A stretch of 64,000 bases of DNA, taken from the NCBI GenBank assembly GCA_904066235.2, contig CAJFCV020000004.1, forward strand, positions 744,001 through 808,000, read 5' to 3'. The position numbers and the translations under genes are program-made. Origin of the DNA: Bursaphelenchus xylophilus. Taxonomy: Eukaryota; Nematoda; Chromadorea; Rhabditida; Aphelenchoididae. The first letter of the stretch is position 1. Every line of letters starts with the position of its first letter. The notes under the pieces were generated by a model. The model saw only the letters and a program-made list of their open reading frames with translations. It made no database searches and was not told the DNA's origin. Positions 44,101 to 64,000 of this stretch are shown here, in pieces.

Positions 44101-47100
44101 TTACCCAAAAAATTGCATTAGTTCCAGTAATTCCGCCGGGAGGAATTATGGAAGATGACCAAAAATTGTTACATTACATTGATAGCGAAATTGTAAATAG
44201 ACCATAAAGGCTTTAGATTGAACTTTTGGGTTTCTTTGGGTGAAAAAAATCCAAAAAATGGACGAAGATCTCTTGGATAGTATAATTTTTTTCTCACAAG
44301 GAAAGTACTTCTATGGGGTGTGGAATTACCGGTCGAGATACATATCAAAAAATTCGCAAAAATTTTCTGATTCAGAATATATATAAATTAGCTGCCTAAT
44401 TTTGGTCTGATGACATGTTTTTGTCCTCAGAAGTTTTCTCGCGACACCATGCAAGTGTCTTTTTGGCCGTGTTTTTACCAATAAAAAAATTTTGTTTTGT
44501 GCTAAACTAAATTCTGAGGCCTTGACAAGCCTTAAAATATCAAATTGGATTACAACTACACCTTAAAAGTAGTTCCAATGTAAAAAATGGGTTTTAGTGT
44601 GGCAAAAAGAGTCGAACCCGTTCCTCTCGGATTCCTAATCTAGCGCTCTAACCACTCGGCCACACCGCTCTCTTCCGAAGGAAGAGACCGAGCGCGCTTT
44701 TGTTGCCGCAGATTTTTTTCCTCGAGAAAAACATTTATTGAAAAAACTCGCTGATAGACCAAAATTAGGCAGCTAATTTATATATATTCTGAATCAGAAA
44801 ATTTTTGCGAATTTTTTGATATATATCTCGACCGGTAATTCCACACCCCATAGAAGTACTTTCCTTGTCAGAAGCGCGAATTTTGACTAATTTTGGCTAG
44901 ACTCGGCGTTAGGATTGAACATGCGGGCATTTAATTTACAGACCGAGGTGTTTATCTCGGATTTTACGCAACTTTTTCAAATATTAAATGAAAAATCCAA
45001 CGAATCAATCCAAAATTGTCTTTATTACCCCATCTGTACAGTGCCGAACCTGATCCAGTGGCAAAAAACGTGCCATTTTGCATTCGGTAAGTATTAAAAA
45101 ATGTAGCAAAATGCCTCCTCCCAAAGTAAAAAACTCGGATTTCAAAAACGGTTTTTTGGAGAGGGAGGCATTTTGCTACGTTTTTGATACTTCTCGGATG
45201 CAAAATGGTACGTTTTTTGCCATTGGATCAGGTCCGCTACGGCACAAACGGGATAATAAAGACAATTATGGATTGATTCTTTGGATTTTTCGTTTAATCT
45301 TTAAAAAATTTGCGTAAAATACGGGATAAACACCTCGGTGTATAAATTAAATGGCCGCATATTCAATCTTAAAGCCGAGTCAATCCAAAATTAGTGAAAA
45401 TTCGCGCTTCAGAGAAAAAATAATATTATCCATGAGAACTTCGACCATTTTTTGATTTTTTACCCAAAAGAACCCAAAGCTTCAATCTAAAGCCTTTATG
45501 GTCTTTTCAATGTCATTTCAAATTTATATCCACCTTTAAAATACAAATTTCCATCGAATTTATATTATCCATGACAATTTTGACCATTTTTGGCTAAAAA
45601 ATCAAACTTTTGGATCCCAAAAGGACCCAATTTTTTTCTGACCACACTAGACTGTTTTCAATGCCATTACAAAATATATTACACACCTTTACACCACCAA
45701 TTTACATCAAATTTATATTATCCATGACAATTTTGACCTTTTTTCGATTAAAACTCAAAATTTCTCGCCGCAGCCTCCATGAAATCCCTCAAAATCGCTA
45801 GCCAATCATTTTTCGGGGCCTTACCTTCTCCACGGGCGCGTATTCCGCGGACCGGCGGTTCTGCGGGCAACAACAACTTTGGGGTTTGGTGGGCAAGCAA
45901 CGCATCGTTTCGAAGCGACGACGAAAGTGAAAGGAGACAAGAGTATCAACGCTGGAATTCCTTTCTCGATCGACGCTTTCGATTCGGAACTTATCGTTTC
46001 ATTTGCTCCATCAAAAACAAAGGAGAGATGGAGAGAGAAAAGTTTCGTTTTCGTTTCGTTCGCTTGGATGGGTGGAAAAGTTTGCGTAATTAAGCCGTTT
46101 TGGTGCGCGATCACATCCAGCGGTGGCTGGGGATTAGCTTGCGGTTAAGTGGGAAGCCTGCTACGAACATCAGCGTCAAAATTAAGGGGGAAATTTCAAA
46201 ATTTTGCCATCAAAAATGCAATGGACCAGAGATATCATGGATAACATAAATTTGATATCGAAACCTCATATATCTATTTAAAAATATGCTTATATATATT
46301 CACCACAGCAAGAGGATGCGTATTTTACCCTGATATTTATTTTTACACCTGTTTTGGAGCCTTAGCTGCTCTTGAACACAATGCCAAAAATGGCGGGAAA
46401 TTTAATTTTTCAAAACTTTTTAAGCCCTTGACTGTTCTAAACCGTCATAAAAAGCAAATTCAGCCTTTGTAAAACACGAAATCTAAAGTTGTCGGCCTAA
46501 TTTTAGAAAAAATCATCAAAAATCATGATTTCATACCTAAAACAATATAAAAATCTCAAAAAACAAGTCTAAAATTTCCACAAAATCAAAGCTGGTCTCT
46601 AAAATACGCCAACTGTTACTGTTTTTCCTTTTCAGGGTTTTTTTTTCAAACCGCGGAAACCCAATTTCGCATTCTCTCCTAGACATTTGACCTTGTAAGG
46701 TCTTCATAAATAAGACTGGAAAGATCACGGTCTAATGGATTTCGCAATGAGCGAAAAATGCATGAAATTTCCGCTTACGGAAATTACAGCTTGCGTCAGA
46801 ACTTATTAAAAACAACGTCTTCGGGAAAACTGGGAATAAAAATTTGTCATGGATAATGTAATTTTGGTGTCTCAAAATACTTTGTCTACGATTTCCTTAC
46901 TCAAACAGACATAAAAAGGGGTGTTCGACCCAAAACTTCAATTTTAAATAGGTTTTTAGCAAAAAATTATATTACTTTAGGTAAATTTTTTTGTCAAAAA
47001 ACGTATGTTTACGTTCTAAAAAGGCATCTACTACTGTCCCAAGTTATTTTAAAGTCCAAATATCACCTTCTATTTGCTATACACCACAAAACTCGGCAAA

Positions 47101-50100
47101 AAATCGCTTCGAATTGGCTAAGATAAGGTCGGGAAGACCGCATCGCATGTGGTTTTTATCTGTTTTGGATGCGAAACAACCCCCAAGGCGTGTCGGATTA
47201 GCTTTCAAAAACTTATTGAAAGCAAAATTCCGACCATGAAAAATTTCAAGACATCAAAAATGAGTAAACATTTTGGGGAAATGTGATGTCAAACAAGCCG
47301 GAGATGGGGAAAAACAACAACCACGCGTCTTCCGGTGCCACAAATACCCATTTTTGGGGTCTAAAAGTGTTTTTGCGAGGTTTGGGGGAGACTTTTTATA
47401 TTACACTTGACAAAAAAGAGAGAAAAAGTTGATTAAAGTAATGAGAACTGGCAAACACCAAGCGTATAAAAGAAGGAAATGACATTACGTGCATTCTATG
47501 AAAATACCAAAAAAAAACAAATTAAAATCATCAAAATTAGTCCAAAAAAAAGATGATGCTTGTCTAAAACAAGGTAAAAATCTCATTTTCCTCGCTTAAA
47601 ATGCCTTCAAATTAACTAGCTACGACAAAGGACGACGTATTTTACAACCAAAATCCCTTTGCAGCCCTAACAAATCCCAAAAGTCGAAGGAAAAATCGGA
47701 ATTCCCACAAAATTCTGGAGTCAAACCCATTCCGAGGCGGGGGAAATGACATACCCCCCGATCACCCCCAAATATCGCCACTGTTATCCTGGAGACGCAA
47801 ACGAAGAGCGGGCGGATGGAGGGGACCGCTTTCACGCACAATAAAAGATCGCTTTTCGCTGTTCAACGCGTGTTGGGCAACCCGGAGATAAGGCGATAAA
47901 AAATTACCAAGTCGGATTGTTTTGTACTCGGAATATCGCTGAAATGTTCGCGGGGCATGCGAGTTGCTATCAGAGACCGATAACATTGGGGGTTTGGGTA
48001 AACATTAAGGATTTTTATGAGTTTTGAGGGGAGAGGGAGCTACAATAAGATAAAATAATATTGAAAACTCAAAATCTTCGATTTTACAGTGGCGTATTTT
48101 ACCTTTTTATTCAGAAAAATCCCGTGTGAAATAAAAATTTTTGATTTTTTGACAATTTTTTGTCGTTTTCGGTCGAAAAATCAAAATCGATGAGTCAAAA
48201 TCGGCAAAAAACACGTTTTTAGGGGCTTTGCTAACCTTTTACTGTCTTTCTCTTCAACGAAAAGTCCATTAGAGTGACTGACCTGACCCAGTGGCAAAAA
48301 ACGTACCATTTTGCATCCGGGAGGTATCAAAAAATGTAGCAAAACACCTCCTCTCCAAGTGAAAAAACTTCGACTTCAAAAACGCGCCTTTGAAAACGGA
48401 GTTTTTTACTTGGAGAGTGAGGCATCTTGACACATTTTTGATACTTCCCGGACGCAAAATGGTACGTTTTTTGCCACTGAATCAGGTCCGTCACTGTAAT
48501 GGACTTTTCGTTGAAGACAAAGACAATAAACAGTTAGAAAAGCCCCTAAAAACGTCTTTTTTGGCCATTTTCACTCACGGATTTTGACTTTTCGATCAAA
48601 AACGGCAAAAATAATGTCAAAAAACCGAAGCTTTTAATTTCGCACATGATTTGTCTGAATAAAAAGGTAAAATACGTGCAAAAACACCTGTCCGATAATC
48701 TAAAACTATTTCAAAAATAAATTTCCCACCAAAACTATGTGAAATACCACTTTTTAGCACTAAAATTCCTCCAAAGTTTTCGCAAAAATTCCTCCAAAAA
48801 TTCCAGACATCTCCGGTTCGGTGTCGGGGATCGCTTTCACAGCCCGCCAAATTAATCGAAAAAATTACGAAAAATAGTGGAATAAACTCGAACATGGGAA
48901 GAAGAAAGGATCAACTCAACCGAGAGGGATTCGAACAATCAGACGACGGAACCGGGCGGTAAACAACGCAAGTGGAAAGGGTAATGCGAATTCCAACGCT
49001 AATCCAGAAATGGTGCCTGGACTGCTCCCGGATAACACTTTTCGAATTCGAAGACCGTGTTTTCGGTGGTACTTTGGTCGTCTGAGGGCACCGAATTATT
49101 TTGTCGAGCGGATTAGGTGGGGGAAAAAGGCCGCAAGTTCGCTGCGAAATTAATGAGAATTTTTCGAACATTCATTAGCATTTTTTGGTTCGTACCTTTA
49201 AAAACTACTAATCAATTGCTGAATTTTTCGCTGGACTTGGCACAATAATATTTTTAGTCCACCATTGACAGAAACAAACGAGATTTTTAGGGCAAAAATT
49301 CCAAAAAAATTGCTTTTTATCGGAAAGCTTGCCCTAAAAATCTCGGTGATTTCTACAAGTTGTAAGCAAAAAAGTCAAAATTATAATGTTACAATGAGGG
49401 ACCTGATCCAATGACAAAAAACGTCTCATTTTGCATCCCGGAAGAGACCAAAATGACTCCAAACCTTTCCCTTCTCAAGCTAAAAAACTCCGCTTTGAAA
49501 AGCGCGCCCTTTCCTTCAAGGCGGGCTCTTCAAAGCGGGTTTTTTAGCTTAGAGAAGGGAAGGGTTTGGAGACATTTTGGTCCTTTCCGCGATGCAAAAT
49601 GGGACGTTTTTTGCCATTGGATCCGGTCCCTCACTGTAATTTCGCAACAAATGTCTTCGAACTGTCCAAAAAATCCAAAATTTCTGGCACTGTCCAAAAA
49701 TCTCTAAACTTTCCATTTCCCCCCCCCCTCCAGACCTCCAAAAATCCCCAGTCAGATCTGCACAAGACACAAGACCTTGTCTTTCCTAACGTTTCCTCCA
49801 GATTCGACAAAAAAAAATTATGAACAAGATCGAAATGAAGAAAATTCAGACGTTTAACGCGAAGGTCAACAACGGAAAACTGGGGGGACTTCCGAAAGAA
49901 ACCGGGGGAAAAATGAGATTTCCATTCGCGGAGTACAATATTTTTAATGATGAGAAATCAGAAATCCGCAAACATATTGGGCCTTGGGTCAGCCCATTTT
50001 TGTTGTATTTTATATTCAAATTCATCCCCAAAAACCTAAATACATGTCTAATCAAAATTTCTCCCAACTTTCATCCAATTCCACACCATTTGTTCCCAAA

Positions 50101-53100
50101 TTGAACTTCAAAAATCAAAAAAAAATTCAATCAATATGATAATAATGAAACAAAAAATAATATTTTCCACTCCAAATTTTGCTCAAATTGCAGCATCGCT
50201 AGCTCATAAATCCGGACGAAGAAAAATTACAAAAAAATCAATCAAGAAACGCGGGGAGAGAAGAGCAAGAAGGATGATTGAAGAAGCGGCGGCGATTTTG
50301 CGACTTTTTATTGGAATCAAAACACGCCGAAAATCTCTTCCACGAGATCGGGGGAATCAAGAGCTTACAAGAGTGGCCTTGACTAAATTACAAATCCGGG
50401 GTGGATAAAAACCATTAATTCCGGAGGCTGTATTTGCTTTGAATCGCAAGTTTCGCCATTTTATACAGTGAGGGACCTGATCCGTGGCAAAAAACGCATC
50501 ATTTTGCATCCGGGAAGTATCAAAAATGTGGCAAAATGCCTCCCTCTCCAACTAAAAAAAACTCCGTTTTGAAGGGCTCCCTCACAAAAAGAGGGGGCGC
50601 GCGTTTGAAATCGGAGTTTTTTCACTTGGAGAGGGAGGTATTTTGCTGCATTTTTGATACTTCCCGGATGCAAAATGGTACGTTTTTGGCCACTGGATCA
50701 GGTCCCTCACTGTATAAACGTATCTTTAAAAATGGCAAAACTTGCGATTCAAAGCAAATACAGCCTCAGGAATTAATGGTTTTTATTCACCCCGGATTTG
50801 TATTAATTTAGTCAAGGCCACTCTTGTAAGCTCTAGATTCCTCCGGTCTTTCCCCCGTGGAAGAGAGGGATCTGGTCCGCCATTGTATTATTCATGGTAA
50901 AATAGATCAATTTCCTTTATTTCAAGAGCTTTCTTTGGGGTTTATTGACGTCTCATTAATTGAAGAGACAAAAAATACGTATTTTACCCCCGCTAAACCA
51001 ATTTTAAGGCGTTAAAACGACCTCATCCTTCCCCAATCCCCCCTAAAAGTTAGTCAAATCCCCTCAGCTTCAGCTAGCCTCGAATCAAATCGAGACCTCT
51101 CCGATTCCTCGCCCCTGGAGGGCTTTTCGATGAGGGCGACTTCAGTGATTCTTTTTGACAAAGCCGCGCGCGATTTGCGCCAAAAAATGGTGAGGAATCG
51201 AAAAGCTGCAAAAGCGAATAAATACCCAAAGGGCAATAAACATGACGGAGGATAATTACATTGTTCGCAGTGTTATAATAACGCGCTTCGCGGTGCCGTC
51301 ATGGAGTGTACTGTTTTTGGGGCGATAAAACGGGTAAAAACAGCGGTCATGGAGGAGATTTTTAGGCAGAAACAGGTGAAAAAAAATGTCTAAATCAATG
51401 TCAGAGATTTATGAAAATCACTTTTCGCAGCAAACTTTCTCTATATAAGGGCTTATTTTAGTATTTTTAAGCTATATAGAAGCAAAAATCCCCCAAAATT
51501 TGAAAATTTATGATATTATTCATGACATTTTGCTTACTTTTAGCTCAAATTATCTCTTCCCAAAGATAGTATTATCATCCATTACCCTTAAAATCCACAA
51601 ATTCACAAGAAAATCGATCAAATTTGCGAAAAAATTCCGCAAATCTGCTAAAATAAGGTCAACCAAAAATTTTTCAAAACTCCCCAAACTTTTTGATAAA
51701 TCTGATATTTTCCGGTGTTTTTCAAGGCCTTTATGAATCGCTGCGACCGGAAGTCGCCTTCAAGTTTATCAATTTATCGTTTTCCCATCAACTTTTTCAT
51801 TTTTTCCAAAAAATGAAAAAAAAAATCTTTCAAAATTGATCTGATTTCCAGCCGAACAACAACAAAATGCAGCTACGAATTCTCAGAAAATCCCATTGGA
51901 ACCTCAATGAAAGCGAAAGCCCATCAGCAGAGGATGGAAACCGCAAATTGACCCGTTCGGATATGATGAAGTCGTTCTGCGGAGCAAGAAGAAAAAAAAC
52001 AAAAGAAACGAGAGAAATTTCGAAAAATGGAGATCGGAAATGGTAAATACGTCAAGGGGAGGTGTTCAAGAAGTCATTCTTGACATGAGGTTTGTAAATA
52101 TGGGGTTTTAGCGAGAGATTTAGCAAAATTTTTGGTCGCACCGTGCAATAAAAATGTGAAAAGTGATTGCACTGTGCAGAAAAAATGCAATTTGTAATAT
52201 CGCAAAACTTCGAAAGCACCGTGCAAAATTTCAAAAAATCTACCGCAAGTTCCCAAAAAAATTTCTGCACTGTGCAATTCCCAAAGTTTTTTATTGCACA
52301 GTGCAAAATTTCAAAAAAGTTTTACTGCACTGTGCAAAATTCCCAAAAAGTTTTATTGCACCGTGCAAAGTCAAAAACGCTTTTCTCACGCACTGTGCAA
52401 AATTCCCAAAATTTTTTTATCGCACTGTGCAAAATTCCCAAATTTTTTTTTATCGCACTGTGCAAAATTCCCAAAAAAGATTTCTGCACCGTGCAAAATT
52501 CCCAAATTTTTTTTTATTGCTCTGTGCAAAATTCCCAAATTTTTTTTATCGCACTGTGCAAAATTCCCAAAAAAGATTTCTGCACCGTGCAAAATTCCCA
52601 AAAATTTTTTTTTATCGCACTGTGCAAAACTCCCAAATTTTTTTATCGCACTGTGCAAATTCCCAAAAAGTTTTACTGCACTGTGCAAAATTGCCCAAAA
52701 TTGTTATCGCACTGTGCAAATTCCCAAAATCTTTTATCGCACTGTGCAAAATTCCCAAAACTTTTTATCGCACTGTGCAAAATTCCAAAAATTTTTTTGA
52801 TCGCACTGTGCAAAACTCCCAAATTTTTTTTATCGCACTGTGCAAAATTCCCAAAAAAATTCTGCACTGTGCAAATTCCCAAAAATTTTTATTGCACAGT
52901 GCAAAACCCCAAAAATTTTATTGCACTGTGCAAAATTCCCAAAAAAATTCTGCACTGTGCAAAATTCCCAAAAAAATTTCTGCACCGTGCAAAGTCAAAG
53001 CTCTTTTCTCTCGCACAGTGCACAGCCAAAAACAAATAAACGCTTTGGTAAAAAGTCAAAACCCGAGTTAAGAACGGATTGTTGAGTAAATAAGGGTCTC

Positions 53101-56100
53101 AAAGTGAGCAATTCAAGGAGGAGATTGATCCTTTTCATGTTGAAATTTGCGCAAAAATATAACCAAAACATTCACTGTCATTTTTCTACAGTGAACATAG
53201 TTTATACCCGTGCTACAGAGATTTTTTTTTAAAAATGAAGAAAAAAATTATGGTTAATATTTATAAAAAGTTTCCCTTTCCCCAAACTATCAAACTATCC
53301 ATTATAGCCTCCATTTTCTCCCCAAAAAATCGCCAATTTTCCGAAAATCCTCACCTGAGCCGGCCGTTGAAAGTTTTCGTGGTACGTGTAGGACGTTTCC
53401 TTGGCTGGGCCACAAACCGAGATCGAAGCGGAGCGCGGCGCAGGCGAGGGTACCCTTTTCTGGGTGTAGGTCGGCTGTCCGAGGCTGTTTCGTTGATGAT
53501 AATTCGTAAGGGTGGCGTCGGCGTAGTCTTCGGGCGGGTTTTCGGCCGCCACGACGCCCACAAAGGTTTGGAATGGGCGCGTGGGGCTGGGATTGTAGCT
53601 TCGATGGACTGGGATGCTGGTCTGGGGCTGATACTGATGATGTGGATGCTGATTTTGGAGCTGATGCTGATTTTGAAGCTGATGCTGATTTTGGAGCTGA
53701 TGCTGATTTTGCAGCTGATGCTGATTTTGGTGCTGATGCTGATTCTGATGGTGGGAGGTTTGTGCGGCGAATTGCTGATGAAATTCGTAGGCCAGATCGC
53801 CGTTATGCCTCAGGGGATAGCCGGCGCCATTCGTCTTGAAGGCCGGCTGCGGGAAATGATAGGGTTGGGTTCGGTGTGGGAGCGGAGGAGGGATTGATGG
53901 GGCCGGCGGTGGGGCGTGGTTGGCGGGGCGGGGTCGGCCAAGAGTCGCGGAGCCGTTTCCGTAGCGGACCGGGATCCGCTGCACGTCGGGGTAGTCGATC
54001 TGAAATTGAAACAAGATTACAGTGACGGGTTAATAATGGGTGATTTGAAAATACTAATAAGTTTGTAAGACCTTTCTCGTCATGGGTAATATAATAAGTG
54101 GTCGAAATATCCGAAATTTTGATTTTTTAGTTCTGAATAAGGTTTGAAATAGAAAAAACAAGTCATATTTTGGCGACTGACCACGAAGAGGTTTGGTGAG
54201 ATAGCTTTTTAAAACCTAAAATTACCGAAAAATTCGATTTTCTACCTAAAATTTAACTTTTTTCAAAGTTTTTGGCGCTTTTTTGTATTACAGTGATGGA
54301 CCTGATCCAGTGGCAAAAAACGTACCATTTTGGTTCCGGGAAGTATCAAAAAATGTAGCAAAATGCCTCCCTCTCCAAGTAAAAAATTCCAAAGGGCCCC
54401 TCAAAAAAATCGCGGGTGGGTTTTTGAAATCGGAGTTCTTTCACTTGGAAAGGGAGGTATTTTGCTACTTTTTTGATACTTCCTGGATGCAAAATGATAG
54501 GTTTTTTGCCACTGGATCAGGTCCGCCACTGTAATACAAAAAAGGGCCAAAAACTTTGAAAAAAATTAAATTTTAGGTAGAAAATCGAATTTTTCGATAA
54601 TTTTAGGCTTTAAATAGCTATCTCAGCAAACCTCTGCATGGTCAGTCGTCAAAACATGACTTGTTTTTTTTATTTCAAACCTTATTCAGAACGAAAAAGT
54701 CTAAAGTTCGTACATTTCAACCTCTTATTATATTATCCATGACGAGAAAGGCCTCACAAACTTATTTCGAGTATTTTCAAATCACCCATTATTAAAATAC
54801 GGCCCTAATCTGTAATTTTAAGGACTCTCCGACCATCTACAACTCAAAAATCTTCAAAAAAATCAGCATTTTGACCTTCTCCTTGCCAAACAAAGGCTAA
54901 AAATACAAAAAAACCAGCCGCATTTTCGCCGAAACCCCCATCTTTTGGCCATTCTAGGCGCTTTTCAAAGCCTTTCTGGCCTTGTATTTGGTCAAAAATC
55001 AAAAAAAATCTTTGAAATCAGCAAAAAACCAATTTTTGGCCCAAAACCCGATAAAAAAGTCGGTTTGTGGCCCAAAATCAGTCGAAATCGACGTTGTAAA
55101 GCGCCGCTTTCCCACACACATTAACCCGCCATTAATTTCGCGTAAAAATTATGGCCAGCAAAGAGAAAGGGGACAATGAAAGGAAGCGTTTTTTCGAAAG
55201 GCAAGGGCGATTTATTGGGGGGATTAAACTCCCAATTTATAAACTTTTTTAAACAAAACTGTTTATTTACTGCGGCGCTAAATCGAAAGGGGATGGTGCG
55301 CAAGGGCGAGGGGCGCGGAATACAAGTGGAAAATAGGGCTGGGATTAACATTTTGATTTATATTATTTTAGGTGAAAAATTTGAAAAAAAAATGTCAAAA
55401 AGTTTGTTTTTCAAGTGAAAAATTAAAATCCCAGGGCAAATAGGATAATTTTAAACAACGTCAAACCATTACAAAGGCCGCCAGAGGCATTTAAAAAAAA
55501 TAAAATAAAAAATTTTTTTTATTTTTTAAAATTTTTCTTACCACAATCATATCCGATTGTTGGATGACCAAACAGTCACTGCTTCGGCGGAGATTCATTC
55601 CACTGCGCTTGCCAAAACTGAAAAAAACGATCAAATTTATCAAAAAAAAAATTAAATTTTTGAAAACTACCGAAAAATCAATTCACATATCTTAATATTT
55701 AAAAGTCTTTCCCAATTACAATATCAAAAAAGACCATTAAAGATAAAAACGGATAAAAATTATATTGAAAATCACAACTCAGAAAAAAAATTTCAATTTT
55801 GAACTCTACTACTGTGACGGACCTGACCTCGTGTCAAAAAATGTACCATTTTGCAACCAGGAAGTACCAAAAAATGTGGCAAAATGCCTCCCTGTCCAAC
55901 TAAAAACCTCCGTTTTGAAAGGCCCGCACAAGAGTGGGCTTTTGAAATCGGAGTTTTTTCACTTGGAGAGGGAGGTATTTTGCTACATTTTTTGATGCTT
56001 CACGGATGCAAAATGGTACGTTTTTGCCACTGGATCAGGTCCGCCACTGTACAATACAATTTTTTTTGAAAATATCAGCCAAAATTGCAAAAAAGCCCTT

Positions 56101-59100
56101 TAAAATTCCAAATCTGGCTCCACCAGCTTTAAAAGCCCTATAAACCCAAGAAAAATTTATGCAAAAGAACGCACAAAGTTCCTAATTCGAGGCGGCGGAA
56201 AGCTCGTCGCGCTCTCTTTAATCCCACCGAATTTGGGATAAGCGCTCGGACTTCATTAAGGCGTTCCAAACGGCGCAAATGCTCGTGGAGGCTGCTAAAT
56301 AAATCAAGAGTCGGAAGTTATGGGGAGGAAATTTATAGTAGAATAAGTTGATAAACTGCGAAAAGTGGGGAGATAATCGATCAAATAGGCGATTTTATAG
56401 TATAAAAAGTTGGAAATGAGGAATTTTATAGTGTAAAAACTAACATAAGCTCAAACATTTTCTCCGGAAATTGTGAAATAGCACTTTTTTAGAAAAATTT
56501 CATAGGATTATGGGGGGAAAGATAGAATATTTAGAGGTATTTTTGAGGGATTTGAATATTTTATGCCCTAAAAAGGGAGTTGCGATACATTTTTGGGAAA
56601 ATAAATGTTTCGCATCGTTTTTTACTCTACACAACAGATTTTCGTCCCAAAAATTTCAAAAAAATTTCGAAACAATGAAGTTTTTTTCGAAGTTTTCGAT
56701 CAAAACTCGACAATTTTTGGAAATCCCAGGCAAAAAATACCCCGTAGCTCGTAAAAAATTCTACTCAAACTTTACATTCATTAAAATCTGAACCCAAAAA
56801 TTACAGCCCAAAAACAAATTTTCCTTTTATCAAATCGTAAAGCCATCCTTTCCCAAAAAAACAAAAAAAACATTCATCGAGATACTGATTTCCCCATTTT
56901 GAAAACCTCTGAAAAGCAAAACCGTACGGTTTACATTACTTCCGACGTCAAAAGACGAAGAAACAATGACCGCCGCTCGAAAAAACGGCTTATCTCTTTG
57001 CGAGAAAAAGTTGTGGCCATTTTTCGGCCCCAAGCTTCGTAGGGATCCTTTTTCGGAGTGTGGCCGTTACTCATTTATGTCCATTCATCTTTTGGAGAAA
57101 AAAGAGAGGGGACGGAGAAAATGCGGCTAATTTTCGTGGGAGATTATGTTACAATTTCGCGGATTTTGAGGCCTGAGAAAGTCAGATTTATGGGTATGAA
57201 AGTGTAAAAAATGGGTGGGGAATGGGTTCGTTGTATAGTTTAGACCAACAAATCTCAAATTGAAAGAAATTTCAAATTCAAAAAACATCTAAATTCCAGT
57301 TACTTTCAATCCCAGAAAGCCCATAAAACGTCTCTCTCAAATCTTCAAGAATTTACTTTTCCAAAACCTCCAACTCAAAAGAGAGAATCTTCGGTTTACC
57401 TCCCACGGAATCCCTCGACCTGTTGATCTTTATCTCTTTTTCTCCAAAAAATATTGAAAAATAGGGTAGCGGCTGGGGAATAGGAAAAAAAAAGAAAAAA
57501 TTGCAGTCATACTTTTAGACCAAGTACTTCCTTGTTCTAAAAGTAGCCAAACAGGCGATATTATTGTCGGAAAAGATGGTAAAGTTGCGTAAAGTAATGT
57601 CTATTGAGAGATACAGACGTCGAGCCTCGATAAACCAAATTGTTCAGCTATCTTTTTATGCGTCGCGATATTGTTTCAAATCAAGTCTGCGCTTATTAAA
57701 GAGATAATTTTTATCTCTTTTTAACCTCTTTACCGTCTGGCATTAGTCTCAGTCAAGCCCATATAGCCAAAAACAAATCCCACCGCCTCTCTGATGCAAT
57801 AAAACGAATCCTTATGCATCATTCTATGACCGAAATTCTGTTCAGCACCATTTTCGGGCATAGGAGGATGCATAGACGTATTTATTTGCACCAAAGAGGC
57901 GTTTGTTTTTGGCCATATGAGCCGCGTGGAGACTAATCCCAGCCGGCAAAGAGGTTAAAAAGAGATAAAAATTATCTCTTTAATAAGCTCAGACTTTATT
58001 TGAAAAGATATCGCGACACATAAAAAGATGGCTGAACAATATGGTCTTTGAGGTTCGACGTCCGTATCTCTCAAACGACACTACTTTACATAACTTTGCC
58101 ATCTTTTACGGCAATAACATCGCACATGTTTAGCATGACGGATGGCTTTACCACCCGCATTCCCAGCCATAAACTTCCCGAAAACAATTAAGTTTCCGAG
58201 ATGGGCGAAACTTTATATAAAACAATGTGGGATCAACCCAAAACTTTTGCGGTGGGATGTTTTGTGGGTGTTGAGGCGAAACGAACAACAAACTGGTTTC
58301 GTTACAGAAAACAGTATTTTTATGGCTCTTTTAAACAGTTGTAAACACATCAAACAATCAAGCGGATGGGGGGAAGATGAAAACCGTTACTAATTACGGA
58401 TGGAACTTCCGTTTTTGGATTTATCGCCTAAGGAAAATAGATTTTGGTCCTAAAAACTTGTTTCTGGGTCTATTACGGTCTTAAAAATTCCATTCGAAAC
58501 CACAAAATTCGTTGATACAAACAATTCTTGTTGCAAAAAACTTATTGCAACAAGAACTATCTGCAACAAACGATTTCAGCGGTGTCCAGCCAAATTTCTA
58601 GGCCAGCAATAACCTTCCTCCCCACATACGCCATACTGAAAACAAAAAAAACCCAGAAAATCCAAAAATACCCTCAGCCTTGGCTATATGATATCCGTGT
58701 TATTTTTAAGCCGTTTGCAAGAATAATTTGCGAAAAATTTATGGCATTTCCTCTCTTTTTTATTGGATAAGGATTAACCGCACACGAAATATAATTAGCG
58801 GTCAACGATTATGCGAAAAACGATGTGTAACAAGGTCATATGGGCATGCAATCTCGAATTTTCCGGGTTTTTTATCATCTCAAAGCTTTTGGAATACGGT
58901 GAAAACAGTGGGGTTTGGATTGCCTTTTCCTACGACGTCCGTTGTACAAAATGGTCTCTTGAACCACTAATTAGCAGTGTTCTCTTCTCGCAAAAGTTTT
59001 ATGACTCAGGACGTACAAGAGGATTTTCGGCTTTTAACATGTTGTTTTTGTAGTTGTACGTGGAAAGGAGATCAAAAATTGAAAAAATAATATTAGAAAT

Positions 59101-62100
59101 TAAAGGCTTTTAATGTATAATATGTTGCCCTATTTCTTGGAGGAAACTTCTGAGCTGACTCACAAATCTCCTCCTTCAAAACATGGACAACATATTGCAC
59201 AGTAAAAACCTTCAATTTCTGATATCATTTTTTGCAATTTTCAGTGTCCTTTGCACGTACAACTACAAAAACAACATGATAAAGGCCGCAAATCCTCGCG
59301 GACGTCCTGAATCATAAAACTTTTCCGAGAAGAAAATACCGCTAATTCTCTGGCTTGTTTTGGAATCGTATCAGCAGAAATGAGTCATTTCCTCGCCGCT
59401 TCCTATTCAAATAACGAATAATAAAAGAACAGAAAAAGCAGGTCCAAGGTATGAATAAAGAGGGCGAATGAAGCGCCAAGGAGAGGCTGGGCTCTTCGCT
59501 GGGATTTCTAACGCCAGATGGTGAAAAAAATAAAGAAGACGGCTTTGGAATTATAATACGCGAATTTATGGAGGCGAGCAAGATGGCGGGACCTGATGGG
59601 TGTATCAATCTGGTCCAACTTCGGATATCCCTCCAAAAAATCGACCAAACAATATGGTCAAATTTGTAATATGCGGGGTAATGCACTTAGAAAACATGTT
59701 TTCAAAGTCAAAATGCCAAAATACTTCCGAAAATATTCTTTTCAATGCGTTGGCTAATGTCTACAGACATACCCATTAAGAAGATTAAAATTTGAAACTT
59801 TTATTCGGTCTTATTGCCAGGCATATTAATTATTTCGAGGAATATCCGGTGGGAGTACAAATGCTGTCACGCATTTGAACTTTCGCACATTAGTAGAGCA
59901 TAATATTGGGGAAGAAGGAAGATTTCGCTTATTCCGTTCGGGAATTTTGAATTTTCAGTACTGTTGTAAGATTCACGGTAAGAGATCAATTGTAAATCTT
60001 CAAAATTAGGAGTTTATTTCAGTATAATAATTTTATGTTATCCATGGGAAATTTCCCAAAATTTCTTGCAAAAATCCCCAAAAAAAAGGGAAATACTAGC
60101 AAAAAATTAATATACCTTCACCCACAACTTTCTACGAGAAAAACCCATTTACTTTTTCGTAAAATTAACTAATCATCGAGTTTTGACCTTTTGCTGCTTT
60201 CCTCTAAATAACAGCTATTAAAAAGTAGTAAAAGGTGGTGGAAATCCAGTCAAATTTCACTTGTTTGGAACGAGAATTCTTCCGGTAAAAGCCGAGAATT
60301 CTTTCAGTGTCCTTTCGCTTTAATGAGGCGCTCTGAATGAGGAGGAATGGAAGGGTAAAAGTTAATGGGGGTGCTAAGGCAGATGGAAGAAATGATTTAT
60401 TCTGGTGACGGTCGGTAAAATCTGGGTAAGAGAGGGAAATTGCGAGAGCTTTGTGGGGCGATTTTTGCATGAAAATTTGGAAAGACAATGGAAAAAAGAA
60501 TAAAAAGTGAATTTGAAAAAAATAAGTTAGAAATAACACAAGAATTTTCCATAAATCAACTCATGATTTTTATTTTATTTTATGGGATAAACCACTGAGT
60601 CTCACACTTTGAAAAAAATGCCAATTTCCGTCTCCAAAATTTTTTTTTTTTAATTTTCGTCATTTTCCAACCTAAAAATCAAATTGGCCTTGGCTAAGAG
60701 GGGCCTAAAAATCTCCCATATTTCTTCAAAAATCCCAATTTTAATTTGTCTCACATTTTATCAAAATTTGAGCCATCTTTTGAGATTGCCCAGTGCAAAA
60801 ATTTTTGTTTCTAATTGCACCGTGCAACTATCAATTCTGTCCGGAAAATAGTGGCGGGTCGTCGCACATTGGAGTCGTCGATCATCGCTTCGACGAGAAA
60901 CATTTTGCTGCGACGACCCGCCACTATTTTCCCGACAGCCTGATAGTTGCACGGTGCAATCAGAAACAAAAATTTTTTTGCACAGTGCAATCTCAAAAGA
61001 TAGCTAAAACTTTGAAAAAACTTGAGACAAATTAAAATTGGGATTGTTGAAGAAATATTTGAGATTTTTAGGCCCCTCTTAGCCAAAACCAATTAGATTT
61101 TTGGGTTGGAAAATGACGAAAATTCAGAAAAAAAATATTTTTGGGGACGAAAATTCGCATTTTTTCAAAGTGTGGAACTCAGTGGTTTATCCCAGAGATT
61201 TTTTAAAAATCATGGGTTGATTTATGGACAATCTTGTATTATTTCTAACAAGTTTTTTTTCAAATTCACTTTTCATTCTTTTTTCCATTATTTTTTCCAA
61301 ATTTTCATGCAAAAATCGCCCCACAAAGCTTTTGGAGAAGAAAATTCGCACTTTTTCAAAGTGTGGAACTCAATAGTTTATTCCAGAAAATAAAAAAAAT
61401 CATGGGTTGACTTATGGACAAAGTCAGAGAGACTTGAAAATAAAAATTATATTATCCATGACCATATTTTCGATCAAAAAACTGCCATAACTGGTAAATA
61501 AGAAATCCCCCATTTCAATCCAATATTTAAAAAGCTCAATATATTTTTTTTATTTTTCATGTATACAATGCGCAATTCGATCAGTTTTGATCTGGTTTCC
61601 TTTTTTTTGAATAAAGAAGATTCAATTAAGAACCAGTGGGTGCCCCATTTCCTTCCCAAAAAAATCTGATCCAGAACGGGATTTCCTCCACATCGTTACG
61701 GAGTTTGAATTTGTTTTTGAGAGCCGTGAGAACTACAGAGGCTGATTTTATATTACTGTAGAACAGCAAAAAATATTTTTAAAAATCTCATTTACAGAAA
61801 ATAAAAAAATTCTCACAATTCAAATTACTGCTTCCTAATCTACTGTAAATTATTTTAGAACCCAAATTTGAAGCCTATGCCCTCAGGCGGTTCAAAGATT
61901 AACCAAAAAAACTTCAAAAATAAAAAAATTCGAACGCCTCAAAAAATTTGAAATTCGCAAAAAAACGCTCAAATTTCAAAAAATGACAGTTGAAATGGCA
62001 CAATAAGACACGCCCGTCTTCTTTACAAGGGGTTTCTCGAGATAAACGAGATAAAGTTCCATCTATTTTTCGGCCCAAAAATAGACCAACAATGATGTGA

Positions 62101-63463
62101 AAATAGACAAAACAGGATGTTTGAATGCAAAAAAACATGTTACATACAACAAATTGGGTCGGGACTTTTCCAGGAACATTGAGTCCGGTCTAATTTTAGG
62201 GTAAAAAATATTGTTTTAGATCAAATCAAAGTTGTCATGTATAAGATAAATTTTGTTGCCAAAATGATTTGAAATCAATCGTAAAGTGTCAAACGGGGCT
62301 TCCTAGAAGCCTCTAAGATCTGTGCTCGCATTGTAAAAACTGGCTTCATCAATATCGGCTATTATAAAAAAAATAAAAAAACGGCGGGAATTTGAATTTT
62401 CAAAATTTTAAACCCCCTAAATACCTCAGATTGCTCACATTAGCCCTTAATAAACCCATTACTCCTCTTTTTCCAAACAAAAAGCAAAATTTTTGATGTT
62501 TCATATATTATCCATGACAGCAATGATCAAATTTTTGAGACTTCTGACGCAAAACAGGAAAAAATTTCATTTCCTCTTGCAAAAATACGACTCTATGAAT
62601 ATTTATTGCGCCTTTACATCGAGTTGTTGTCAGATTTTTGAGACAATTTGCATTTGCGTACAAAAAAACTTCCCCGTTCGAATAAAAACTCAATTTTCTT
62701 TTGGGAAAATAAGTAAATGATGGTGAAAATACACCCCATCTGGACTGTGAATTTGTTTTTTACAGCTTAGTGATAAACTCCGAGGATATTTCGATATTTT
62801 TTTGAGTAAATTTGTGAAAAATGTAAGTTATCGTCCAAAAATTGACGATATTTATGAAAATCGTATAAAAAATGATAAAAACCCAGCGTCAAATGTATTC
62901 ATTATAGCCCAGACACATTCTATGGAATCTGATTGCCCTAAAAATCAAAAAACGCAAATAAAAACAACACCTACCATCCACTGGGAAGATAAATTTGATT
63001 ATTCATGAGGACTGATCCGCTGATCAAAATGTACCAACACGTTGCTGACTGGCCCTTCCTAAAATACGAAAATTAGCCTTCAAACGTCTCTAGCTTCATT
63101 AAATTTTAATCCTGCCAAAATAAAGTCATTTCAACAAAAAAAAATTATATTATCCATGATACCTGAACAAAATATGATCCTTGGGATGTCGTTCGTGCCT
63201 CGCCGTCTCCGCAATCGATTTCAACGGCCCATCGGCGAGGATGCGGAACACATCGAGCTGTCGGAGGTATAAGAATATCAACTTGATGTCCTGGAAATCA
63301 GTTATATTATTCTAGGCCAGCTTGACGAATAATATAAGAAAAACATCATCGATCAGTCCGATGTGACCTAAAAATCAAAGAGAAAAAGGGCAAAGCGACC
63401 TACCTCGTCCGTTCGTTCTCTCGATGGACGCCTAAGGGCATCAATCACCTTGTTGTTGTTCAT
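29534..63463 (-). CDS. pxf-1: Rap guanine-nucleotide exchange factor, PDZ-GEF (RapGEF2/6, PXF-1)
   Basis: Seventeen exons (plus-strand coordinates, 5' to 3'): 63404-63463, 63163-63290, 62975-63058, 55542-55617, 53355-53999, 43614-43704, 42459-42697, 41503-41793, 39490-39887, 38626-38926, 37641-37994, 36161-36470, 35423-35676, 34056-34612, 31132-31408, 30181-30532, 29534-29721. All junctions are GT/AG and phases agree throughout, giving 4605 nt and 1534 residues. Order: cNMP-like domain, Q/H-rich linker, acidic patch, second cNMP-like domain, REM, PDZ, RA, RasGEF. By family it loads Rap1/Rap2 with GTP at membranes and junctions. The C-terminus (NAEEN) lacks a class I PDZ ligand. The gene spans 34 kb because introns are packed with foldback and palindromic repeats; exons are repeat-free except the Q/H tract. 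Confidence 0.95.
29790..30055. repeat. Two-copy tandem repeat in the last pxf-1 intron
   Basis: GGGTTATTAGTGATAAAA then TCGTTTTT, then GGAGACATTTTATACG with long A and T runs, at about 29796 and 29921 (unit near 125 bp). Confidence 0.75.
30610..31075. repeat. GCAC-N-GTGC block in pxf-1 intron 15
   Basis: About 16 palindromes with AATAAAAAAGTTGTTTTTTT and GAGATT spacers, ending 57 bp from the exon 15 donor. Confidence 0.9.
31132..36470 (-). CDS. pxf-1: pxf-1 exons 12-15: Ras-associating and RasGEF catalytic domains
   Basis: Exon 13 plus the start of exon 14 form the RA domain (AVKVYRSDQSFRFVTVF, FIKQRRLPDDLQNLAERI). Exon 14 continues into the Cdc25-type catalytic domain: IEATEYVDNLFKLESRY, FIKIARHCRDLRNFNSMF, AIISGLEKPAVRRL. 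The exon 14 donor is the less usual GTCAGT. It joins IPG to KYMKMLADIQSLLDPSRN in exon 15, matching the family exactly, then IPIYPIMRKDLTFAHE. All hallmark catalytic segments are present, so the enzyme should be active on Rap GTPases. Confidence 0.93.
31492..33994. repeat. GTCATNATGAC-centred palindromes in pxf-1 intron 14
   Basis: Six copies (near 31492, 31588, 32902, 33728, 33842, 33958) of a 39-bp inverted repeat: TTTCCAAAAAATCC, GTCATGATGAC, ACATTTTTTGGAAA. Those at 33728, 33842 and 33958 are in tandem at about 114 bp, with the middle one in opposite orientation. Between 32840 and 33700 I see no gene. Confidence 0.85.
31641..32837 (+). mobile_element. Decayed mariner-type transposon
   Basis: 1197 bp bounded by inverted repeats TTAGGTTTAGAAGTATGACT then CCGCCGTTTTTT, with TA duplicated at 31639-31640 and 32838-32839. 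Plus-strand fragments read like mariner transposase across shifted frames: TVDEQWIDFDNPKRKR, then HDHARPYVEKLVKDTP, then YSPEATLSGYHLF, KQRFAKLND. Stops and frameshifts abound, so it is inactive. It lies antisense in pxf-1 intron 14. Confidence 0.88.
34955..35290. repeat. Sparse GCAC-N-GTGC block with about 125-bp repeats (pxf-1 intron 13)
   Basis: Three tandem copies of a unit holding GCACTGTGCAAAAATCGAAA then ACTATAGTAAAATTTGGCCC and GTGTAAATTACTCAAA. Palindromes are few (about four). Confidence 0.8.
36565..37515. repeat. GCAC-N-GTGC block in pxf-1 intron 11
   Basis: About 30 palindromes, commonly GACTGCACAGTGCGA or TGCACTGTGCATCGAAAATA. Composite units such as GTGTGCACTGTGCATCGAAA then ATATTTTCTGACTGCACAGT recur three times (about 36655, 36945, 37105). 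Confidence 0.92.
37641..37994 (-). CDS. pxf-1: pxf-1 exon 11: PDZ domain
   Basis: 118 codons holding a full PDZ fold (about residues 790-885): ELAFSIIGG at the carboxylate-binding loop position (FSII in place of GLGF), FIANVEPGSPAEKNGLKRGD, EIIEANGQNF and ALDILRESTHLSMTIK. It directs membrane or scaffold placement in the family. Confidence 0.93.
38055..38535. repeat. GCAC-N-GTGC block in pxf-1 intron 10
   Basis: About 17 palindromes extended as CGCACAGTGCAGT or GCACGGTGCAGTCAAAAT, alternating in spacers of about 25-35 bp. It ends about 90 bp before exon 10. Confidence 0.9.
38626..43704 (-). CDS. pxf-1: pxf-1 exons 6-10: linker, acidic patch, second cNMP-like domain, REM
   Basis: Exons 6 and 7 are Ser/Pro-rich linker. 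Exon 8 contains GLPEAAVDSDDDDDEEE, the conserved acidic motif of PDZ-GEFs, followed by NVRECLEKEPAERSSDDI. Exon 9 is a complete cNMP fold (MVFAVVPEAGTVILHD, DSWSVVVNGAVE). The phosphate-binding loop reads GDAFGAQPQPQP instead of the cyclic-nucleotide consensus with its invariant Arg, so cAMP binding is unlikely. Exon 10 is the RasGEF N-terminal (REM) domain: LVDETDPNNIDDSFAQDF, WVNSHFNDFE. Confidence 0.92.
38968..39460. repeat. GTCATGATGAC-centred palindromes, tandem (pxf-1 intron 9)
   Basis: Five head-to-tail copies at about 38968, 39079, 39197, 39313 and 39421 (period 108-118 bp), each TTCCAAAAAATCC, GTCATGATGACA, then TTTTTTGGAAAT. It is the same family as in intron 14, with the same spacing. 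Confidence 0.88.
40720..41455. repeat. Tandem repeat, about 162-bp unit x 5 (pxf-1 intron 8)
   Basis: The landmark AAAAACCTCTAAAACACGAA recurs near 40761, 40923, 41087, 41248 and 41412, with TCAAATTCTACTACAAGGTC and AAACGGCCCAAATTTTCTTG between. It runs to within 50 bp of exon 8. Confidence 0.88.
41850..42350. repeat. GCAC-N-GTGC block in pxf-1 intron 7
   Basis: About 16 palindromes with TGCACTGTGCAATGAAAATA then TTTTGTGA spacers, starting 57 bp from exon 8. It shares spacers with the intron 11 block. Confidence 0.9.
42700..43600. other. pxf-1 intron 6, nothing recognised
   Basis: AT-rich intronic sequence without palindromes, foldbacks or alternative exons that I could support. Confidence 0.4.
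44297..44867. mobile_element. Foldback element, CAAGG/CCTTG ends, TCA target duplication, with tRNA-like core
   Basis: 571 bp with ends CAAGGAAAGTACTTCTATGG and the inverse, pairing for over 110 bp. TCA flanks both sides. It shares terminal CAAGG and subterminal TTAGCTGCCTAA with the 25935-26980 element. It sits only in the left arm of palindrome P1; the right arm has the uninterrupted sequence, so it inserted after the palindrome formed. Confidence 0.85.
44597..44665 (-). pseudogene. tRNA-derived sequence inside the foldback element
   Basis: On the minus strand GTGTGGC at the 5' end pairs with GCCACAC at the 3' end (7 bp). TGGCCGAGTGG matches an A box and GGTTCGACTC a B box. The loop TTAGGAA would place AGG as anticodon. 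D and T stems pair poorly and the total is only 69 nt, so it is probably a relic or a pol III promoter for the element. Confidence 0.6.
45825..45905 (-). CDS. pxf-1: Probable alternative first exon of pxf-1
   Basis: On the minus strand an ATG (45903-45905) opens a 27-codon frame (MRCLPTKPQS... to ...AEYAPVEK) that ends exactly at a consensus GTAAGG donor in phase 0. This is the phase needed to join exon 6 at 43704 (QDMWQAAL). Upstream, 45906-46130 is unique, repeat-free and rich in CTCTCC/TTTCGTTTCG, like a promoter and 5' UTR. The product would lack the first cNMP-like domain and Q/H linker (about 1230 residues). It could instead be an internal exon if an acceptor is used, but none is obvious. 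Confidence 0.5.
47600..48010. other. Unique GC-richer intronic island (pxf-1 intron 5)
   Basis: Repeat-free, with a minus-strand ATG frame (MLSVSDSNSHAPRTFQRY) that reaches a GTAATT site in phase 1, which does not fit exon 6. It is a candidate internal promoter or enhancer only. Confidence 0.25.
48093..48675. repeat. Palindrome P2 centred on a Tc1-type MITE
   Basis: Arms 48093-48271 and 48497-48675 are 179 bp each and inverse to one another at roughly 80-85% (for example CTTCAACGAAAAGTCCATTA next to the core). The central MITE is 48272-48496. The arm sequence is unrelated to the arms of P1, P3 and P4. Confidence 0.88.
48780..49180. other. Unique intronic island
   Basis: Repeat-free. A minus-strand ATG at 48893-48895 opens a hydrophobic, signal-like start (MFEFIPLFFVIFSINLAG) but no usable donor follows. 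No exon is called. Confidence 0.2.
49392..49636. mobile_element. Tc1-type MITE without flanking palindrome arms
   Basis: 245 bp with TIR CAATGAGGGACCTGATCCAA, inverse ending GGTCCCTCACTG, and TA on both sides (49390-49391, 49637-49638). The halves pair almost throughout (CCATTTTGCATCC, then CTTCTCAAGCTAAAAAACTC on the left). Its flanks are not inverted copies of each other, so this is the simple insertion form. Confidence 0.85.
50335..50865. repeat. Palindrome P3 centred on a Tc1-type MITE
   Basis: Central MITE 50466-50712 (TIR CAGTGAGGGACCTGATCC, TA flanks). Arms 50335-50465 and 50713-50865 are inverse copies: GAGCTTACAAGAGTGGCCTT, GACTAAATTA and GAGGCTGTATTTGCTTTGAA occur in both with a few indels. 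Confidence 0.9.
51060..51310. other. Unique GC-richer intronic island
   Basis: Repeat-free stretch in pxf-1 intron 5 with patches such as GACAAAGCCGCGCGCGATTT. A second such island is at 51850-52050. No splice-compatible exon is seen; possible enhancer or promoter DNA. Confidence 0.25.
52135..53035. repeat. GCAC-N-GTGC array in pxf-1 intron 5, about 36-bp unit
   Basis: About 26 palindromes in near-regular tandem, unit TCGCACTGTGCAAAATTCCC then AAATTTTTTTTA. The ordered 36-bp period and CCCAAA spacer are private to this block. The 300-residue frames through it (Cys/His/Lys/Phe-rich) are repeat artefacts. It ends about 320 bp from exon 5. Confidence 0.95.
53355..63463 (-). CDS. pxf-1: pxf-1 exons 1-5: first cNMP-binding-like domain and Q/H-rich linker
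   Basis: Exon 1 starts at the ATG complement of 63461-63463 (MNNNKVIDALRRPSRERTDE). Exon 2 gives DIKLIFLYLRQLDVFRIL, exon 3 the core TCWYILISGSVLM, exon 4 FGKRSGMNLRRSSDCLVIQ, and exon 5 opens with IDYPDVQ. This is the PDZ-GEF-specific N-terminal cNMP fold (about residues 20-118), spread over four exons and a 7.4-kb intron. Residues 117-331 in exon 5 are low complexity, Pro/Gln/His-rich, and contain the QNQHQL hexapeptide repeat. Upstream 5' UTR exons may lie beyond 64000. The second intron's donor at 63162 overlaps a TATTATCCATGAT word. Confidence 0.93.
53640..53755 (-). repeat. In-frame 18-bp coding repeat (QNQHQL) in pxf-1 exon 5
   Basis: Five to six near-identical copies of an 18-bp unit (plus strand GCTGATGCTGATTTTGGA-like) encode alternating Gln, Asn, His and Leu. 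Unit length is a multiple of three, so copy-number change keeps the frame. It is expected to be length-polymorphic. Confidence 0.85.
54031..54794. repeat. Palindrome P4 centred on a Tc1-type MITE
   Basis: Central MITE 54291-54531 (CAGTGATGGACCTGATCCAG, TA flanks). Arms of 260 and 263 bp are inverse copies over their whole length, including GAATAAGGTTTGAAATA, CGATTTTCTACCTAAAATTT and a TATTATCCATGAC word in each arm. It begins about 30 bp upstream of pxf-1 exon 5. Confidence 0.92.
55812..56049. mobile_element. Tc1-type MITE without flanking palindrome arms (second)
   Basis: 238 bp, ends CTGTGACGGACCTGACC and GGATCAGGTCCGCCACTG, TA on both sides. The halves pair through CCATTTTGCA and GGCAAAATGCCTCCCTGTCC. 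The flanks are not inverted. It lies in pxf-1 intron 3. Confidence 0.82.
57555..58123. repeat. Long inverted repeat (about 570 bp) in pxf-1 intron 3
   Basis: Arms pair for about 250 bp each: AAAGATGGTAAAGTTGCGTA, ATCTTTTTATGCGTCGCGAT and the perfectly shared AAAGAGATAATTTTTATCTC then TTTTTAACCTCTTT. The centre near 57830 contains no recognised MITE. Edges are GCGATATTATTG / CAATAACATCGC. Confidence 0.85.
58969..59347. repeat. Inverted repeat (about 380 bp) in pxf-1 intron 3
   Basis: Arms of about 150 bp: AATTAGCAGTGTTCTCTTCT at the left edge, and ACATGTTGTTTTTGTAGTTG then TACGTG about 70 bp in, both inverted at the right. The central about 80 bp are unpaired. Probably another non-autonomous element; no target duplication is clear. 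Confidence 0.75.
60549..61229. repeat. Palindrome P5 centred on a CTGTCGGG MITE, with GCAC-N-GTGC near the core
   Basis: Central MITE 60837-60938 (CTGTCCGGAAAATA...TATTTTCCCGACAG, inner GTGGCGGGTCGTCG pairs perfectly). Arms of 288 and 291 bp are inverse copies: CCATAAATCAACTCATGATT, GGGATAAACCACTGAGT, GGCTAAGAGGGGCCTAAAAA. Each arm also carries two GCAC-N-GTGC palindromes beside the core. A third partial copy of the arm end lies at about 61330-61415. Confidence 0.92.
61420..62970. other. pxf-1 intron 3, 5' part, nothing but dispersed words
   Basis: AT-rich. Contains TTATATTATCCATGAC-type words at about 61447, 62233 (reverse) and 62506 and one GGCGGGAATTTGAATTTT fragment at about 62383. No exon is supported. 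Confidence 0.4.
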
Positions 63464-64000
63464 GGGTGAGTTTATCGCGTTGTCATGGGCCAGACCAGCT
63501 AAAATTAGGTGAAATAGGTTTTTTGAAAAGCATAAAATTCGTTTTCAAAGCTTCACGGACGAATTTCACAGATGAAACTGCAATTTTAAGGTAAAAATTA
63601 TATTATCCATGACGAAAAAATTATATTATCCATAAAAAATCAAAATAATTCAAGTTCAAGAGGCTCCTGGAAAGCTGAAAAACGACTAACACAGACACCA
63701 AAACATCAAATCCTTCAAGAATCATACGTTTTTCGGCTTAAAAATGGCCAATAAGCGATTTTTAAAAGGCCGATCGTGTCAAACCGAAAGCACTCAATTA
63801 TGACACAAACGGCCCAGCAATCCTTCGGACATGTGAGAGAAGTGACGAATTTTTATCCGACAGATCCATTTCCCAATCAACTCGAAAAAATTATATTATC
63901 CATGATAAGTCCAGAAAAATTTGATAAAAAACGGGTTTCCCGGCGAGTTGAGGGCGAGAAATGAAAGAATAAGATAAACTGGAGCATAATCAAGGTAAAC
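63464..64000 (-). promoter_or_regulatory. pxf-1 5' flank
   Basis: Upstream of the exon 1 ATG. Contains three TTATATTATCCAT(GAC) words (about 63598, 63619, 63891) and a GC-richer patch near 63775-63830. A 5' UTR exon or promoter is expected here or just beyond the window; no TATA box is identifiable with confidence. Confidence 0.3.

Follow-up and report, generated by a model that had tools for sequence, protein, structure and literature searches.

Palindromes centred on a foldback transposon in Bursaphelenchus xylophilus as probable fossils of foldback DNA synthesis

How does a long palindrome come to carry a short transposon at its centre? The question is raised by a stretch of 64,000 nucleotides from the nematode Bursaphelenchus xylophilus (positions 744,001 to 808,000 of contig CAJFCV020000004.1, hereafter C4; the whole stretch is referred to as the window), in which an earlier note, made from the sequence alone, had described five palindromes, P1 to P5, each centred on a miniature inverted-repeat transposable element (MITE). 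In the present study, palindromes were defined by aligning the window to its own reverse complement, and all five were recovered; in this self-alignment, P1 to P4 share one Tc1-type MITE at their centres and P5 has another, as had been stated. We consider it very likely that the palindromes are fossil traces of foldback DNA synthesis, with the MITE as its nucleus. This reading is drawn from arms that are single-copy in the five Tc1-MITE palindromes searched, from a mostly flush geometry, from remnants of a MITE end (stubs) at the outer edge of 4 of 19 palindromes, and from the agreement between the outer 30 or so nucleotides of the two MITE ends.

Members of the Tc1/mariner family are recognized by a TA followed by a CAGTG-type terminus. 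The MITE of P1 to P4 has TA at both ends followed by such a terminus (consensus ends TACAGTG...CACTGTA, with many single copies carrying one-base changes), is approximately 250 bp long, and folds back through long complementary ends, its reverse-strand matches to itself and its copies being 72-84%. It is also abundant, with 3,740 and 3,246 candidates in two first-look searches of the genome (78.25 Mb in eight contigs). In its TA target, CAGTG ends, length and foldback structure it resembles the MITEs known from Tc1/mariner, and no coding capacity was seen, though no protein search was made. The flanks of ordinary Tc1/mariner MITEs are unrelated to each other, which also holds for 78 of the 97 copies examined here by the criterion given below.

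Regarding the origin of the arms, six of them (P1 to P5 and the palindrome at locus L084 on contig C3) were searched against the whole genome, and the arms of the remaining palindromes were compared only among themselves. One arm each of P1, P2, P3 and P4 matched exactly two places, namely the two arms of its own palindrome, and the arm of L084 likewise matched only its own two arms. In these five cases, an inverted repeat is flanked by local DNA on one side and by the inverted copy of that DNA on the other. The view of the earlier note that the arms do not belong to the element was thus borne out genome-wide for P1 to P4, and no dispersed copies of arm plus MITE were found for these four or for L084. 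The alternative that arms and MITE together form one larger dispersed foldback transposon does explain another inverted repeat of the window (25916-26997, see below); for P1 to P4 and L084 it is refuted by arms present only at their own locus, and in a cross-comparison of the arms of 18 palindromes, only those at L076 and L083 were strongly alike, apart from three pairs sharing 24-31 nt, such that we give it almost no credence.

An assembly artefact might also be suspected, considering that palindromes are hard to assemble. Substitutions separate the two arms of each of the 18 palindromes by 4-16%, the stubs described below occur far above the control, and palindromic copies lie on contigs C3, C4, C5 and C6, all of which make an artefact exceedingly improbable. 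Over whole palindromes, MITE included, the identity in the self-alignment of P1 to P5 was 83-87%, and the substitution divergence between the arms of P1 to P4 was 5-16%; the earlier note had estimated 10-20%.

The frequency of such palindromes was assessed in 97 MITE copies, which were gathered from the best 40 scored of the 3,740 and of the 3,246 candidates together with some neighbours picked up by chance, and which are thus chosen by similarity and non-random. The first batch comprised 72 distinct copies (74 rows minus two L001 rows that repeated window copies). Flanks were regarded as palindromic when they were mutual reverse complements with a score >25 located no more than 40 nt from the MITE on both sides. 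The check proposed in the earlier note, namely whether the flanks of MITE copies are mutual reverse complements, gave a positive answer, mostly with flush arms, in 19 of the 97 (18/72, then 1/17, then 0/8). P1 to P4 scored 101-199, whereas 60 left and right flanks mispaired across loci gave one score of 44 and otherwise no more than 20. Several candidates were left uncounted: L070, L074, L020 (1226), L021 (1836), L129 (794; 1/241) and L130 at 25.5 (453/122), in which arms scoring >25 are set off from the MITE; L109 and L111, which are interrupted and involve apparent dispersed repeats; and L012, which is interrupted by a CTGTCGGG element and is probably a 20th palindrome.

The arms, which are 51-509 bp long and all located inside contigs, mostly start at the MITE itself. 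Among 18 palindromes, there were no unmatched bases on either side of the MITE in ten, equal numbers of up to five in five, and unequal or larger numbers in three. Arms that start flush are a necessary outcome of folding at the MITE, and a MITE that entered a completed palindrome would produce them only by coincidence. The second possibility, that the MITE prefers to insert at the centre of existing palindromes as a transposon seeking hairpins or cruciforms, has several points in its favour: the window has two single-copy palindromes that lack a MITE, the predicted folds of these two pair much of their centre, an insertion of this type would leave TA at the centre, and the bacterial element IS1272 is described as targeting inverted repeats (PMC5678879). 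It nevertheless needs palindromes that are nearly free of a spacer and have TA at the centre. By a crude measure, the number of alignment columns preceding the innermost run of 10 matches was 60-198 in four MITE-free palindromes and 0-72, counted outside the MITE, in the 18 MITE-centred palindromes, half of which had 10 or fewer. Six copies of the Tc1-type MITE cover 2.2% of the window, and four of its seven palindromes judged to consist of local DNA (P1 to P5 and two MITE-free ones) are centred on this family; therefore, the MITE is a strong, non-exclusive focus. This count is based on a list that omits matches of a MITE to itself or to other MITE copies, arrays of the GCAC motif, and short repeats, whether in tandem or scattered.

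A trace of a broken end was found at the outer join of 4 of the 19 palindromes. In a uniform test of all edges, stubs were present on 4 of 38 sides, in P2 (8-10 nt), P3 (20 nt), P4 (11 nt) and L084 (14-15 nt, right edge), and each begins at base 1 of the MITE end, points inward, and stops within 2 nt of the arm edge. All four score at least 10, a score reached by 2 of 15,000 positions in a control in which BLAST hits to the MITE were masked and the stub places excluded; a score of at least 8 was reached by three. The unmasked control gave 138 of 20,000 pseudo-boundaries, a number inflated by real MITE copies. By eye, the joins share 2 nt of sequence in P2 and 1 nt in L084, and carry one extra base in P3 and P4. 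Insertion into existing palindromes does not predict stubs at this excess over the masked control, and for P2, P3, P4 and L084, though for these four only, it is contradicted by them.

The two ends of one MITE copy also resemble each other more in palindromes than elsewhere. In a comparison of 19 palindromic and 70 naked copies by permutation, which left out the eight copies of the last batch, the ends agreed at the variable bases 8-10 with a value of 0.804 in palindromic copies vs 0.575 in naked copies (p 0.001). This excess fades inward (bases 1-12, p 0.0026; 13-30, p 0.0086; 31-60, p 0.19; 61-88, p 0.60), and similar values were obtained with the first 71 copies, from which the very diverged copy at 49390 was excluded. 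The stub differs from a variant shared by both present ends at base 8 in P2 and L084 and at bases 8-9 in P3, which is what recopying of the broken end from the intact one would give. A switch of template in the middle of the MITE, by which one half would be a fresh copy of the other, was rejected because the halves of palindromic copies are no more alike over bases 31-88 than those of naked copies. The replacement of one MITE end by a copy of the other thus seems confined to its outer part and similar in length to the stubs. With the exception of P4, the priming repeat thus appears recopied at its own end, which insertion into a finished palindrome again does not predict; overall, we regard such insertion as improbable.

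The stubs and the agreement of the outer ends follow if a break or stall in one MITE end allowed the rest of the MITE to fold back, restore that end from the other one and copy the adjoining DNA in reverse before being rejoined. Foldback synthesis would start from a naked MITE with X on one flank and R on the other (X-MITE-R). If the DNA broke or a fork stalled 8-20 nt into one end of the MITE, probably close to the base of its hairpin, X would keep a short remnant of that end, the stub. The remaining MITE would fold its 3' end onto the complementary opposite end and prime synthesis, in this presumed direction, that restores the missing terminus from the other one and runs into R for approximately 50-500 nt, giving an inverted copy, R', flush with the MITE. 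The new end would then be joined to the stub, presumably by a polymerase and a joining pathway of the cell, to give X-stub-R'-MITE-R, and in palindromes lacking a stub, the stub was presumably trimmed before joining. The location of the breaks near the end suggests that an extruded hairpin was cleaved at its foot or caused stalling there. The proposal of the earlier note that the MITE came first and nucleated an inverted duplication of its surroundings is supported by the stubs, the concordance of the outer ends and the single-copy arms. On the other hand, its suggestion that breakage followed excision receives no support: Tc1-type excision leaves 2-3 nt of the element, and the stubs retain 8-20 nt.

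A variant of foldback synthesis would dispense with a broken end. The nascent strand at a replication fork may stall at the hairpin base after 8-20 nt, jump to the opposite strand beyond the MITE, copy back and return via the other end. The product would be identical, stubs of this length are compatible with stalling where the hairpin begins, and fork template switching has been proposed as a source of inverted copies (PMC10766183). The variant requires one homology-free jump over 100-500 nt and a precise return, and the sequence has no feature by which it could be told from the broken-end version; we count it as a form of the same explanation, possible though somewhat less probable than the broken-end form.

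A number of observations weigh against foldback synthesis nucleated by the MITE or restrict its reach. No stub was found by the uniform edge test on either side of 15 of the 19 palindromes, and the comparison of stubs with present ends rests on one or two bases per palindrome. The left end of P4 resembles its stub more than its right end, which would require later mutations. Unmatched bases lie next to the MITE in P3 (1/14), L078 (26/17), L084 (18/22) and L108, the 19th palindrome (9/5). The arms of L076 and L083 are 82-85% alike, and hence at least these two are not unique DNA. The later batches of MITE copies were poor in palindromes, such that the 20% rate is uneven and gives no genome-wide estimate. 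MITE-free palindromes occur in the window, and thus the MITE is unnecessary for some. In addition, per-arm divergence exceeded the terminal branch of the MITE in 10 of 18 copies, and the palindromes are thus not shown to be younger than the insertions, a result that is also compatible with insertion into existing palindromes. In these 18 copies, the mean per-arm divergence was 0.051 (range 0.021-0.081), the mean terminal branch of the MITE 0.055 and its mean distance to the consensus 0.075; the divergence of the arms was not significantly correlated with that of the MITE (rho 0.30, p 0.23). Dating is neutral between insertion first and palindrome first, and the two ages are close.

Table 1. 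Palindromes, MITE copies, stubs and a nested element in the window (window coordinates; arm lengths in bp, left/right)
Feature	Position	Strand	Remarks
P1 palindrome, whole	44196..45507		inner part 44865-45416, arms 172/172
P1 outer arm pieces	44196-44291 and 45415-45507		left arm split by nested element
Foldback element nested in P1 left arm	44291..44873		118-bp arms 98% alike; tRNA-like inside by eye
Tc1-type MITE, centre of P1	45037..45244		MITE copy scan
MITE-end stub TACAGTGG, P2 left outer edge	48085..48092	+	next two bases CG fit stub and arm
P2 palindrome	48093..48676		arms 177/178, flush with MITE
Tc1-type MITE, centre of P2	48270..48498		MITE copy scan
Naked Tc1-type MITE copy	49390..49638		very diverged, 0.30 from consensus
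P3 palindrome	50334..50866		arms 130/152; 13 unmatched bases near MITE, right side
Tc1-type MITE, centre of P3	50464..50714		MITE copy scan
MITE-end stub TACAATGGCGGACCAGATCC (read inward), P3 right outer edge	50868..50887	-	20 nt, 2 mismatches to family end
MITE-end stub TACAGTGACGG, P4 left outer edge	54018..54028	+	one extra G before arm
P4 palindrome	54030..54795		arms 259/262, flush with MITE
Tc1-type MITE, centre of P4	54289..54533		MITE copy scan
Naked Tc1-type MITE copy	55810..56051		MITE copy scan
Palindrome, no recognisable MITE at centre	57555..58123		single-copy (genome search)
Palindrome, no recognisable MITE at centre	58969..59347		single-copy (genome search)
P5 palindrome	60447..61330		arms about 389/388; centred on different MITE
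MITE with CTGTC-type ends, centre of P5	60836..60942 (approximate limits)		about 105 bp, unrelated to Tc1-type MITE

Both naked MITE copies of the window listed in the earlier note are real (Table 1). The two single-copy palindromes lacking a recognisable central MITE (57555-58123 and 58969-59347) are additional to those of the note. Its arm limits held for P2 to P4 (177/178, 130/152 and 259/262) and fell short for P5, which is longer (60447-61330, about 389/388). P1 was confirmed as a palindrome, not as one with an uninterrupted arm, since the foldback element at 44291-44873 splits its left arm; this nested element lies outside the process that made the palindrome, and the arms of P1 continue outward once it is set aside.

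P5 stands apart from the other four. Its arm matched its own two arms, an inverted piece at 61330-61421 and one 57-nt stretch elsewhere. In the family of its central MITE, 24 of 30 loci had the terminal pair, and flush palindromic flanks were present only in P5 and possibly in L065, where two adjacent CTGTCGGG elements (1199-1548) have outer flanks that look palindromic and flush (81/102); L065 is a possible second palindromic case in this family. No stub was seen when the edges of P5 were inspected. The suggestion in the earlier note that one process made all five palindromes is supported for P1 to P4 and is not established for P5, which lacks a stub and has few flush palindromic relatives. 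The extra inverted piece of the P5 arm, which adjoins the right edge of the palindrome, looks as though more than one template switch made P5.

The inverted repeat at 25916-26997 was considered as a case of a second transposon at the centre of a palindrome and rejected: in 19 of 20 copies that were fetched, the flanks are complementary in a similar way and share the letters of the inner edge, the sole exception, L097, being cut off on one side. Judging from these copies, the repeat is an ordinary element with long ends. The family is dispersed, with complementary flanks that reach approximately 85-105 bp beyond the motif, and about 20 of the best 40 scored matches show a similarity of 93-96% across almost the full query. 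The element nested in P1 (44291-44873) looks to be of the same kind. Both are foldback elements with inner TTAGCTGCC...GGCAGCTAA motifs and a sequence that resembles a transfer RNA (tRNA) by eye, and ARAGORN reported no tRNA genes in the window despite this appearance.

Among the fetched loci, the palindromes at L008 (232-987) and L029 (1754-2536) have no recognisable central element and no match among the other loci. Those at L014 (13-584), L022 (430-886) and L028 (665-1492) were dropped as further MITE-free examples on the grounds that they share a central motif near AAATGAGGAGAG by eye; they apparently belong to a dispersed foldback family that is old and whose arms have diverged strongly. 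The window also contains a self-complementary GCACNGTGC motif in large arrays and scattered copies, at 10091-13151 and in many other places, including a 3-kb array with periods of 139 and 208 bp. Motifs similar to TATATTATCCATGA are repeated at 45417-45763 and 63131-63918, with three copies each.

Considering known systems, the closest precedent is in yeast, in which the 3' end folds back at inverted repeats near double-strand breaks and subsequent fill-in leads to dicentric chromosomes (PMC10622511). Foldback priming has mainly been studied in rearrangements on a chromosome scale, of which this yeast work is an example. The likeness to foldback priming lies in a central inverted repeat and neighbouring DNA copied in reverse. 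The yeast intermediate is a hairpin-capped and then a dicentric chromosome, studied in cells without Mre11/Sae2 nuclease function (PMC10622511), whereas in the nematode the copies are approximately 50-500 bp, interstitial and inherited, the far end has been rejoined, and the repeat is a transposon family. A hairpin-capped or dicentric end product was not found among the palindromes, whose arms lie inside contigs, and a transient capped intermediate would be invisible. End joining by polymerase theta in Caenorhabditis elegans (PMC5068794) is similar in being nematode repair with single-nucleotide homology at joins. Snap-back inserts copied in reverse from the flank are given there as a minor class, and 37-44% of inserts map within 20 bp of the break (PMC5068794); unlike these, the tracts in the present study are approximately 50-500 nt and start at the complementary ends of a transposon. 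IS1272 is likewise a transposon associated with inverted repeats, and replaced short target inverted repeats of 22, 24 and 30 bp in three new insertions (PMC5678879), whereas here the palindrome most probably follows the insertion.

The statement in the earlier note that no described system has this signature needs to be divided: the mechanism has a precedent in yeast (PMC10622511), and it is for the small, interstitial, transposon-nucleated form that no counterpart came to light. A literature search covering titles and the starts of abstracts, with few subscription journals, found no transposon-centred single-copy palindromes with end stubs. As far as we searched, small, interstitial, transposon-nucleated fossils are new as a form of foldback-primed inverted duplication, and the palindromes are best filed as a natural, recurrent form of it.

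Since the mean ages of arms and insertions are nearly equal, the four recognisable breaks all lie 8-20 nt inside a MITE end, and approximately a fifth of the examined copies are affected, it is conceivable, although we consider it rather unlikely, that palindromes arise as part of the life cycle of the MITE and not through random damage at a later time. In that case, the MITE would convert germline DNA around it into long hairpins when it inserts or shortly afterwards, and would in this way seed hairpin-RNA loci and new, longer foldback elements. The genome appears to hold many natural, heritable, small foldback events in an animal germline, some with the remnant of the broken end, and such events record the position of the break, the length of the copy and the manner of rejoining. 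They represent a route from a non-coding transposon to a long hairpin of single-copy host DNA, which may give rise to double-stranded RNA, to edited introns and to new foldback elements.

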